From assembly GCF_900156805.1 (NCBI RefSeq), contig NZ_FTOQ01000002.1, positions 248,001 through 312,000 of the forward strand: a stretch of 64,000 bases of DNA, in the 5' to 3' direction. Shown here in pieces: positions 6,043-8,806 of the stretch. The notes under the pieces were generated by a model, which saw only the letters and a list, made by a program, of their open reading frames with translations, was not told the DNA's origin and did not search any database. Position numbers and translations under genes: made by a program. Source of the stretch: Roseivivax lentus. GTDB taxonomy: Bacteria; Pseudomonadota; Alphaproteobacteria; Rhodobacterales; Rhodobacteraceae. Positions within the stretch are counted from its first letter, which is position 1. Each line of letters opens with the position of its first letter.

Positions 6043-6076
6043 ACAAAAAAGGCCCCCTGGCTTGGCAGGGGGCCTT
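6043..6076 (-). terminator. Rho-independent terminator of the ATP sulfurylase gene
   Basis: A perfect 11-bp stem (6049-6059 with 6066-6076) and 6-base loop. On the minus strand the stem is followed by a run of T (complement of 6045-6050), placing it 22 bases after the stop of the gene at 6098. Confidence 0.85.
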
Positions 6077-6097
6077 CTTCGTTACCGGCGCCGGGGA

Positions 6098-8176
6098 TCA
6101 ATCCGCGGCGATCAGGCCCATCGATTCGAGCTTCAGCAGCACCTGGTGGGCGCAATTGTCCACGACGGTGCCTTCGGTCTCGACGCGCAGCTCGGGGTCC
6201 TTCGGCACGTCATAGGGATCGGAGATCCCGGTGAATTCCTTGATCTTGCCCTCGCGCGCGAGCTTGTAGAGGCCCTTGCGGTCGCGGCGCTCGCATTCCT
6301 CGAGCGAGGTTGCCACGTGCACCTCGACGAAGGCGCCGTATTGCTCGATCTCCTCGCGCACCGCGCGGCGGGTGGCCGCATAGGGCGCGATAGGCGCGCA
6401 GATGGCGATGCCGCCATTCTTGGTGATCTCGGAGGCGACATAGCCGATGCGGCGGATGTTCAGGTCGCGGTGCTCTTTCGAGAAACCCAGCTCGGAGCTG
6501 AGGTTCTTGCGGACGATATCGCCGTCCAGAAGCGTCACCGGACGCCCGCCCATCTCCATCAGCTTGACCATGAGCGCGTTGGCGATGGTCGATTTGCCGG
6601 AGCCGGAGAAGCCGGTGAAGAAGACCGTGAAGCCCTGTTCGGAACGCGGCGGCGAGGTACGGCGCAGCTGCTGGACCACCTCGGGGAAGGAGAACCAGTC
6701 GGGGATCTCGAGCCCTTCGCGCAGGCGGCGGCGCAGCTCGGTGCCCGAGATATTGAGGATGGTGACGTTGTCCTTGTCCTCGATCTCGTCGATCGCCTCG
6801 TACTGGGCGCGCTCCTGCACGTAGACCATGTGTTTGAAATCGACCATCTCGATGCCGATCTCGTCCTGGTGCTGGCGGAACAGGTCCTGCGCGTCATAGG
6901 GGCCGTAGAAATCCTCGCCCTGCGAGTTCTTGCCCGGGCCCGCATGGTCGCGGCCGACGATGAAATGCGTGCAGCCGTGATTGGCGCGGATCAGCCCGTG
7001 CCACACCGCCTCGCGGGGGCCCGCCATGCGCATGGCGAGGTTCAGAAGGCTCATCGTGGTGGTGGCGTTCGGGTACTTGTCGAGCACCGCCTCGTAGCAG
7101 CGCACGCGGGTGAAGTGATCGACATCGCCGGGCTTGGTCATGCCGACGACGGGGTGAATGAGCAGGTTGGCCTGCGCCTCGCGGGCGGCGCGGAAGGTCA
7201 GTTCCTGGTGCGCGCGGTGCAGCGGGTTGCGGGTCTGGAAGGCCACGACCTTGCGCCAGCCGAGTTTGCGGAAGCGCGCGCGCAGCTCGTTCGGCGTGTC
7301 GCGGGTGGCGCGGAAATCGTAATGGGTGGGGGGCTGGATGCCGGTGACCGGCCCGCCGAGATAGACCTTGCCCGCCTGGTTGTGCAGGTAGTTGACCGCC
7401 GGATGCGCGTCGTCATCGGCGCCGAAGACCTTCTCGGCCTCGCGGGCCTTGTTCGGCACCCATTTGTCGCTGACCGTCATGGTGGCGAGGATCACGCCTT
7501 CCTGGTCGCGCAGCGCAATGTCCTGGCCCTTCTCGATGGTCTCGGCGAATTCCTCTGAGACATCGAGCGTGATCGGAATGGGCCAGAGCGACCCGTCGGC
7601 GAGGCGCATGTTCTCCACGACGCTGTCGTAATCGGCCTCGCTCAGGAAGCCTTTCAGCGGCGAGAAGCCACCGTTCATCAGAAGCTCGAGGTCGCATATC
7701 TGGCGCGGGGTCAGGTCCCAGCTGACCAGATCGCCGGCCTCGACCTTCAGCTTCTGGGCGCTGTCATAGGAGACGTAGAGTTCGGGAAGGGGGGCAAGAT
7801 TGTTCTGCATGAGACTGGTCCTGGTGACGATTGGAACGAATTGGCTGTGAGTGCCGGTCAACTCAGCGTGGAGCGCGTCGAACTCGGCGAACTTGCGCGC
7901 GAGGAAGCGGTCCGACAGGCGGGCCTTCTCGGACGCGCCGCGCAGGGTGAGGGAATAGGCGAAGCGCTGCCGCTTGTCGGGGCCGCTGCGCGCGGAGATG
8001 CTGACGAGCCCGGCCTCGGTGACCGCGCGGAGATAGGTGTTGAGCCGTCCCAGCGATATCCCGAGCGCCTCCGCGATGGCCCGCTGCGACGCCTCAGGCG
8101 CGCGGTCGAGCTGGCGGAGCAGGCGGAAGAGCTGATCCTCGTCCGGCAGGCTCGGTGTTGCGGGCAAAGCGGTCAT
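6098..8176 (-). CDS. MarR-like regulator fused to ATP sulfurylase and APS kinase
   Basis: One uninterrupted frame joins three parts; numbering is from GTG 8215. Residues about 28-120 are a winged-helix domain like EPS-associated MarR regulators (ISLGRLNTYLRAVTEAGLV helix-turn-helix). Residues 136-525 are sulfate adenylyltransferase with QTRNPLHRAHQE (HxxH, 333-336) and GRDHAGPG (421). Residues 530-705 are APS kinase with GFSGSGKS Walker A (535) and DGDIVRKNLSS. The enzyme part converts sulfate to APS and PAPS. ATG 7810 (MQNNLAPL), with AGGA 8 bases upstream, would give the ordinary 570-residue enzyme, so two products are possible. GTG 8215 lies inside the operator; I use ATG 8176. Confidence 0.85.
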   Translation of the reverse strand: MTALPATPSLPDEDQLFRLLRQLDRAPEASQRAIAEALGISLGRLNTYLRAVTEAGLVSISARSGPDKRQRFAYSLTLRGASEKARLSDRFLARKFAEFDALHAELTGTHSQFVPIVTRTSLMQNNLAPLPELYVSYDSAQKLKVEAGDLVSWDLTPRQICDLELLMNGGFSPLKGFLSEADYDSVVENMRLADGSLWPIPITLDVSEEFAETIEKGQDIALRDQEGVILATMTVSDKWVPNKAREAEKVFGADDDAHPAVNYLHNQAGKVYLGGPVTGIQPPTHYDFRATRDTPNELRARFRKLGWRKVVAFQTRNPLHRAHQELTFRAAREAQANLLIHPVVGMTKPGDVDHFTRVRCYEAVLDKYPNATTTMSLLNLAMRMAGPREAVWHGLIRANHGCTHFIVGRDHAGPGKNSQGEDFYGPYDAQDLFRQHQDEIGIEMVDFKHMVYVQERAQYEAIDEIEDKDNVTILNISGTELRRRLREGLEIPDWFSFPEVVQQLRRTSPPRSEQGFTVFFTGFSGSGKSTIANALMVKLMEMGGRPVTLLDGDIVRKNLSSELGFSKEHRDLNIRRIGYVASEITKNGGIAICAPIAPYAATRRAVREEIEQYGAFVEVHVATSLEECERRDRKGLYKLAREGKIKEFTGISDPYDVPKDPELRVETEGTVVDNCAHQVLLKLESMGLIAAD

Positions 8177-8196
8177 TTTCGGGACCCGGGTCAAGG

Positions 8197-8216
8197 TGTG
8201 TTCAGCGCTGAACACA
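8197..8216. promoter_or_regulatory. Perfect 20-bp palindrome, probable operator
   Basis: TGTGTTCAGCGCTGAACACA is a perfect inverted repeat directly upstream of the MarR-like domain's start. A dimeric winged-helix protein binding its own promoter would need such a site, so autoregulation of the fused sulfate-activation gene is the likely meaning. The binding protein is inferred. Confidence 0.65.
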
Positions 8217-8344
8217 TTTCACAGGATGCGGTTTCGGAAAACCCCAAATCGGGAGGCGACGCGGGATGTTGCCGATTTGCAGCGTTGCCCCGCGTAGCCG
8301 GCGCCGCACTCATCTGCGATGAACGGAGCCAGATCGGCGCGCGC

Positions 8345-8806
8345 TCAGACCGGACAGGGGTGAACGGCGCCCGGTTGCAGCACACCGCGCCAGGAAAACA
8401 GGACCGCGTTGCGGAGGTCGGGTCTGAGGCGGGGCGGGTAGAGGAACCCCGCATGGCCTTCGGCGCGCAGGCGGTCCGCAAGCGTCCAGGTCGGCGGCAC
8501 GCGCCCTGTCATGCGATCGTGGTCCCAGCGGTGGCGGGTAACGCGATCCGTGATCTCTGGCAGGGATGGGCCGGACCAGAGAAGTTCGACCAGCACGCGC
8601 GGGGGATCGTCGGGCCGGCGGTACCGGGTGATCGATGCGCGTGCAGCCTCTGGCGAAAGCCCCGCATAGAGCGCGGGCTGGCCGTCGTGGTGGAACCGAC
8701 CCTCGGGCGCCTGGACAGCTTCAAGCGCGGCCTCTGCGCGATCCGCGAACAGGATGCGGAAGAGGCGCAGCGGATCACTCCGCCGCGCTGTCGACCGGGG
8801 CACCAT
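8345..8806 (-). CDS. RES-domain protein
   Basis: A 153-residue protein with the RES pattern: [16 protein letters not shown] near the N terminus, [20 protein letters not shown] (the arginine and the G-x-P-x-x-Y-x-S-like strand) around residue 40, and late [12 protein letters not shown]. Some RES proteins are NAD+ phosphorylase toxins neutralised by an adjacent Xre/DUF2384 antitoxin. None is next to this gene: its first codons overlap the 3' end of trxB by 32 bases, and it is followed by 130 gene-free bases. It may therefore be a housekeeping member rather than a toxin. No activity is proven. Confidence 0.75.

Follow-up and report, generated by a model that had tools for sequence, protein, structure and literature searches.

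The window, a stretch of 64,000 nucleotides from the genome of Roseivivax lentus, contains on its minus strand a single frame of 705 codons (8215..6101, with the stop codon at 6098-6100) that runs without interruption from a winged-helix domain into a sulfate-activating enzyme. The helix-turn-helix (HTH) part matches TIGR04176 (MarR_EPS) over residues 26-120 of the 705-residue frame at 85.5 bits, just below the cut-off of 88 bits, which the isolated piece of 122 residues passes with 90.1 bits; Pfam places HTH_24 above its cut-off at residues 28-83, where MarR_2 falls barely short of its own (26.7 bits for a cut-off of 27). Residues 133-703 correspond to positions 3-571 of the 572-position model NF004040, bifunctional sulfate adenylyltransferase/adenylylsulfate kinase (1044 bits versus a cut-off of 669), and the Pfam order C-terminal to the HTH is PUA_2, ATP-sulfurylase and APS_kinase. 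QTRNPLHRAH, GRDHAGPG and GFSGSGKST, which we take to be the active-site motifs of bifunctional SAT/APS kinases, are all found in the enzyme part. The Pfam and NCBIfam matches agree with the sequence-only reading of this DNA, which had described a MarR-like winged helix of the EPS type continuous in frame with ATP sulfurylase/APS kinase. A 498-codon open frame antisense to the enzyme gene (window 6062-7558, plus strand) is likely a by-product of high G+C content.

The full-length product more likely has 692 residues, from ATG 8176, than the 705 counted from GTG 8215 in the sequence-only reading, because GTG 8215 falls within a 20-bp palindrome (8216-8197) and because ATG 8176 is where 13 fused relatives align. 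The features of the locus are as follows.

6098..8176, minus strand: fused gene with a predicted 692-residue product (MarR_EPS winged helix, linker, ATP sulfurylase and APS kinase); start placed by alignment with 13 fused relatives
7856..8143, minus strand: winged helix and long C-terminal helix (TIGR04176, HTH_24, MarR_2 and AlphaFold)
7811..7855, minus strand: linker, residues 108-122, variable in sequence and predicted to be largely disordered
7819..7822, minus strand: AGGA, predicted ribosome-binding site of the internal start at a spacing of 8 nt, its AGG being the codon of Arg-119
6098..7810, minus strand: predicted internal product, the ordinary bifunctional ATP sulfurylase/APS kinase of 570 residues, of which 1-568 match NF004040 at 1043 bits
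7334..7792, minus strand: PUA-like N-terminal domain of ATP sulfurylase (Pfam PUA_2)
6659..7306, minus strand: ATP sulfurylase catalytic domain with QTRNPLHRAH and GRDHAGPG (Pfam and motifs)
6182..6637, minus strand: APS kinase domain with the P-loop GFSGSGKST (Pfam and motif)
8200..8213, unstranded: putative operator core GTTCAGCGCTGAAC, an exact GTTCA-N4-TGAAC motif
8237..8242, minus strand: probable -35 element GTTTTC, 24-29 bp before the operator core (position frequencies in 85 aligned promoters)

On one side the fused gene is neighboured by genes for a RES-domain protein, a pyridine nucleotide-disulfide oxidoreductase and an Lrp/AsnC protein, and on the other by HSP20, DUF465, AIR carboxylase and PurK-type genes. 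The RES-domain gene (window 8345-8806, minus strand; 55.4 bits for a cut-off of 23.2) immediately precedes the fused gene and has its orientation; members of this family are often the toxin part of RES-Xre pairs.

When the HTH piece was searched in 147 relatives, 15 genomes, R. lentus included, were found to carry HTH and enzyme in one frame, of 690-754 residues in 14 of them and truncated by a contig end in the remaining one; a search with the whole protein returned a match of approximately 570 residues without the HTH in most other genomes of the family. A second set, the best 80 of 320 relatives of the HTH profile among named genomes, shows the HTH continuing into the enzyme frame at all 80 loci, 3 of which end at a contig edge. 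These taxa include Palleronia, Thalassococcus, Phaeobacter italicus, Shimia, Roseovarius, Thalassovita, Aliiroseovarius, Leisingera and Maritimibacter, the loci not being independent, since many are from close kin (Shimia, Aliiroseovarius, Roseovarius), and the two sets overlap by six loci. Of 394 family genomes sampled evenly, 93 match the HTH at E 1e-30 or better; among these, 88 have it in a frame of at least 600 residues, as judged by frame length alone rather than by single inspection, 1 is cut by a contig end (G040) and 4 have short frames. Among 289 genomes of the class, searched at E 1e-20 or better, long-frame matches came only from R. lentus and one genome of the same family, and short-frame HTH matches from 4 genomes of other families.

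No fused relative in either set has a stop codon between HTH and enzyme. In G084, G033, G019 and G040, one TGA falls inside the search match; the frame downstream of it still contains the entire HTH, and these stops are therefore upstream of the gene. A frameshift or assembly artefact is thus ruled out by the same frame in 14 relatives and at all 80 named loci. Recurrence of the fusion, which the sequence-only reading had proposed to look for, is accordingly seen in 14 relatives besides R. lentus and throughout the second set, and the stop codon before the enzyme in close relatives, which it had named as the sign of an unreal fusion, was sought and found in none of the fused relatives. A record titled Nocardioides marinus (L189) also contains a Roseobacter-type fused gene and is probably mislabelled or contaminated.

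Fused genes are scattered over the enzyme tree, and 7 of the 9 genomes of the genus of R. lentus lack the fusion, which is therefore dispensable. To account for the 14 fused genes, a quick 70-row enzyme tree requires 8 changes of state (shuffled mean, 13.0), only 2 of which are forced by well-supported branches of this generally low-support tree, and monophyly of the 14 genes is rejected (AU p 0.003). Fused state and palindrome, allowing up to one mismatch, coincide in all 70 rows, and a sign test on independent pairs, in which the second trait is the fused state itself, offers just 2 pairs on well-supported branches. The linker spacing and palindrome shared by fused loci suggest a single old fusion, followed by repeated joint loss of the HTH and palindrome; horizontal transfer is an alternative history that the data also accommodate. 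The first 10 of 22 plasmid records (Roseobacter, Sulfitobacter, Paracoccus and others) match the enzyme part only, over 81-83% of the query, so that by sequence these plasmid copies look unfused.

The HTH is under purifying selection, as judged from substitution patterns. Between R. lentus and its nearest fused relative (G005), HTH, linker and enzyme have dN/dS values of 0.118, 0.088 and 0.061, and the corresponding pN/pS values across all 91 first-set pairs are 0.340, 0.684 and 0.184, with pS near saturation. The value of 0.684 indicates that, outside its ribosome site, the linker sequence is only loosely conserved; the distance from HAELTG to the internal start is identical at 80 of 80 fused loci. 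The alignments made comprise 62 and 60 of the 80 second-set loci, each with the window added. HTH and linker have 30 invariant residues over 61 rows, and Q31, R32, S41, G43, N46 and L49, together with Y74, L76 and T77 of the wing, are invariant in both fused and free HTHs. The AlphaFold model of the HTH (mean pLDDT 83.8) is a confident winged helix with helices at 13-25, 31-38 and 42-54, the wing at 58-76 and a long C-terminal helix at 78-107. The solved folds closest to it are mostly MarR regulators; searching PDB sequences with the same HTH as a profile yielded weak matches only (best E 0.0062). The full-length model, in which mean pLDDT is 67.5 and much of the enzyme is of low confidence, was used for the linker only and predicts it to be mostly disordered.

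Conservation at the internal start goes beyond the protein sequence. The sequence-only reading had noted that ATG 7810 has its own AGGA site, and AGGA is indeed seen at 7822-7819. Its first three bases encode Arg-119, and this position is AGG in 79 of the 80 second-set genes, the other having CGG, versus 33 of 4,088 other arginine codons; AGG likewise precedes the internal start in 15 of 15 first-set genes, and of the 18 AGG codons among 754 arginine codons in the first 14 aligned genes, 14 are at Arg-119. The base after AGG is A in 79 of 80 genes though the residue there may be T, S, N, M or I, and the start codon itself is ATG in 67 fused loci, GTG in 12 and TTG in 1, with no other valine or leucine codon used. 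Among the 54 of 80 loci whose match begins at a start codon, predicted pairing with the anti-Shine-Dalgarno sequence is stronger at the internal than at the first start in 52. AGGA was found at the equivalent place before none of 52 unfused starts (those with an ATG found, out of 56), 41 of which have no clear site. Internal initiation best explains this nucleotide-level constraint, and because AGGA and the start codon are conserved well beyond what the protein would require, the comparison supports the possibility, raised in the sequence-only reading, that a long and a 570-residue product come from one gene.

The operator core lies in a perfect 20-bp palindrome, TGTGTTCAGCGCTGAACACA (8197-8216). 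GTTCA-N4-TGAAC precedes the start in all 15 fused loci of the first set, 14 times exactly and once with a single mismatch. Among second-set loci, it stands just before the start, exact in 78 of 80, with one mismatch in 1 and with no upstream DNA in 1. The motif was spotted by eye and then tested by a search over all palindromes with 5-bp arms and spacers of 0-10, in which GTTCA with spacer 4 came top in fused promoters (78 of 79; the best non-overlapping arm listed reached 11) and again in a separate set of the family's free MarR_EPS paralogs, where 8 of 13 had it and two more had it with spacer 5. Control stretches 1.0-1.2 kb upstream had any one palindrome in at most 7 of 77 cases and unfused enzyme promoters in at most 3 of 56, and GTTCA-N4-TGAAC within one mismatch was found at none of the 56 unfused enzyme genes, with at least 295 nt examined for each (all 56 fetched loci; an earlier, smaller comparison had taken 15 of 16, leaving out L050). 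Together with whole-genome counts, in which the 14 other fused genomes hold 38 exact sites versus 7 for the reversed control pattern, these comparisons rule out a chance palindrome.

An exact site stands at the fused gene in 13 of these 14 genomes, and in G010, G033 and G043 the exact site occurs nowhere in the genome except at the enzyme's own promoter. The 25 sites away from the fused gene comprise 4 outside and 21 inside open reading frames, the frames having been chosen by length, which is lenient in GC-rich DNA; one of the 21, in G005, directly precedes a free MarR_EPS gene, and the fused protein may have further targets in these genomes. One exact palindrome in G061 (L241:1499) lies between open reading frames, approximately 90 nt before a pyruvate dehydrogenase E1 alpha-like start. 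When the motif was extended by its flanks, the fused promoter was the only site in 8 of 9 fused genomes scanned. The three exact sites of R. lentus are at the fused promoter, at the promoter of a free MarR_EPS paralog and inside an open reading frame with a reverse-transcriptase match (C41:340331), the last being rejected as a second target. In 13 of the 15 fused genomes, no further MarR_EPS match was found at E <1e-10, so that the fused protein is the only evident binder there. GTTCA-N4-TGAAC is thus likely the operator of the free MarR_EPS family, placed on the fusion's own promoter. We know of no operator for the TIGR04176 family, for which a predicted one is hereby obtained.

Alignment of 85 promoters on the palindrome brings out a conserved CTTT(G/T)C 24-29 bp upstream, a TG..ATGYG that leads into its left arm and, beyond its right arm, ACACACTTTGAGTCG; we read these as a probable -35 element, -10 element and early transcript. 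These promoters are the 78 exact second-set loci and 7 first-set loci; the 8 first-set loci left out are 6 duplicates of second-set records plus L043 and L044. These assignments derive solely from conservation, and the -10 matches the consensus poorly. On this layout, the palindrome would cover the probable -10/start region, as for a repressor. A second upstream palindrome with up to one mismatch is present in 6 of the 78 exact-site promoters (L133, L137, L183, L185, L186 and L187), always at 31-32 or 49 bp from the first, that is, approximately 3 or 4.5 helical turns.

The one other HTH match in R. lentus, the free paralog at C39 (L230:1-10209), has the same palindrome in its promoter and heads glmS-, wecB- and wecC-type genes, with a PIN-domain gene and a small partner between regulator and glmS, and a partial Sulfotransfer_2 domain match (E 9e-6, above the cut-off) whose product could use PAPS. 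Because this paralog has the same type of operator, cross-binding between it and the fused protein is possible. The free paralog thus adjoins polysaccharide-type genes, whereas the fused gene is outside the exopolysaccharide locus to which the name of TIGR04176 refers. GTGCGG(T/C)AGC or a close form occurs within 75 nt before the HTH match in 11 of 13 free MarR_EPS leaders (L002, L018-L025, L027 and L029) and resembles the ops/JUMPstart element of RfaH-controlled polysaccharide operons; exact GCGGTAGC is present in 1 of 80 fused leaders and was not found near the fused gene within the window. Exact-site scans of fused genomes and the gene neighbours revealed no polysaccharide target of the fused protein. 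The suggestion of the sequence-only reading that polysaccharide genes are the target is accordingly not borne out, given the 13 of 15 fused genomes with no second MarR_EPS at E <1e-10 and the three whose sole exact site is at the enzyme's own promoter, and the polysaccharide link of the fused protein is ancestral. The broader suggestion that PAPS synthesis is linked to transcription gains support insofar as the likely MarR_EPS operator sits on the promoter of the fusion.

Collectively, the fusion, the palindrome, the internal start and the enzyme motifs, all of which emerge from sequence comparison, make it probable that one gene provides two products, a sulfate-activating trigger enzyme that represses itself and the ordinary enzyme of 570 residues. 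Translation from the first start would yield a MarR_EPS-type winged helix, a short flexible linker and a complete ATP sulfurylase/APS kinase, and translation from the internal ribosome site the enzyme devoid of its DNA-binding part; this short form would account for most of the catalysis. We infer that the full-length form binds GTTCA-N4-TGAAC over the probable -10/start region and represses, rather than activates, its own promoter; long and short chains would assemble into mixed oligomers in which a few DNA-binding arms are carried by a mainly catalytic assembly, and the amount of enzyme, perhaps also its bound APS, PAPS or ATP state, would set transcription of the enzyme gene. The APS-kinase-like domain of the fungal enzyme serves as an allosteric site for PAPS, and a similar change of state could perhaps be passed to the HTH. 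A more specific version, which we regard as somewhat less likely than not, is that internal initiation sets the ratio of DNA-binding to plain subunits and that the APS/PAPS-bound state of the oligomer directly gates repression of its own gene. If true, a single gene would encode a sensor of activated sulfate whose HTH derives from a polysaccharide regulator, and where a free paralog is retained, as in R. lentus, operators could be shared with sulfated-polysaccharide genes.

The two products could each be disputed. Were only the 570-residue enzyme made, the HTH would be an untranslated or decaying leftover kept open by high G+C, an idea encouraged by the stronger internal ribosome site in 52 of 54 loci and by the long chance frames that are common in GC-rich DNA and abundant in the window; however, the HTH dN/dS of 0.118, the 30 invariant HTH and linker residues over 61 rows and retention of the palindrome with the HTH in 78 of 80 loci make it very improbable. 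Conversely, the long fusion might be the sole product, with AGGA kept for pausing, mRNA structure or an essential arginine. Arg-119 is indeed invariant over 61 rows, yet it is encoded by AGG and not by CGN in 79 of 80 genes, the next base is A in 79 of 80 despite the varying residue, and the start position is confined to ATG (67), GTG (12) and TTG (1), with no other codon for valine or leucine, so that we regard this possibility as improbable, if less so than the former.

Other readings concern what the protein does at the promoter. The enzyme promoter might belong to the regulon of the free MarR_EPS polysaccharide regulator, the fused HTH acting elsewhere or merely modulating, as might be expected from the R. 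lentus paralog at C39, which shares the palindrome and heads wecB/wecC-type genes and the Sulfotransfer_2 match. Against this, the palindrome persists in the 13 of 15 fused genomes for which no second MarR_EPS was found at E <1e-10, and unfused enzyme genes do not have it even in genomes with a free paralog, leaving this explanation little probability, marginally more than that of a sole long product. Activation of its own promoter by the fused protein, for which the second palindromes at 31-32 or 49 bp in 6 of 78 promoters could be used, is the least improbable of the alternatives and still unlikely, since the universal site overlaps the probable -10/start region, the usual position for repressors.

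The preferred reading, autorepression by a bifunctional enzyme with an internal start, would be of interest beyond this locus. Control of sulfate activation in Roseobacter-group bacteria, which are abundant in the sea, appears little studied, and in approximately one-fifth of the sampled family genomes (88/394, by frame length) the enzyme itself looks like the regulator. A Rhodobacter paper, PMC9552610, gives CysB as not annotated in R. capsulatus SB1003 and names a strong CysB-like candidate. Among the matches listed in literature searches on the fusion, TIGR04176, sulfur regulation, internal starts and trigger enzymes, no description of this fusion was found; it is real and conserved, and is a variant of the trigger enzyme with no description among those matches.

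Compared with free MarR_EPS proteins (TIGR04176), the fused protein has a similar HTH sequence, the long C-terminal helix and the upstream GTTCA-N4-TGAAC; unlike them, its HTH is joined to an enzyme, outside a polysaccharide locus and with no GCGGTAGC nearby in the window. It resembles the bifunctional SAT/APS kinases of NF004040, with solved structures 1i2d, 1m8p, 2gks and 3cr8, in its full-length enzyme match and catalytic motifs, and departs from the solved chains in 122 additional N-terminal residues that matches to these chains leave uncovered. By sequence, enzyme and DNA-binding domain are combined in one protein, as in trigger enzymes, among which PutA, BirA and NadR of E. coli are counted in PMC8249747 (citing Commichau and Stulke 2008), where trigger enzymes such as PutA are described as acting at the promoter region of the gene that encodes them. 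The fused protein is, like these three, a metabolic enzyme with a DNA-binding domain, and like PutA it is apparently aimed at its own promoter; unlike them, it joins a sulfate activation enzyme to the MarR_EPS DNA-binding family, and its gene has a conserved internal start for the domain-free enzyme. Sulfate activation would thereby join the short list of trigger enzymes, as an unusual case in which a conserved internal start controls the share of the enzyme that carries the regulatory domain.
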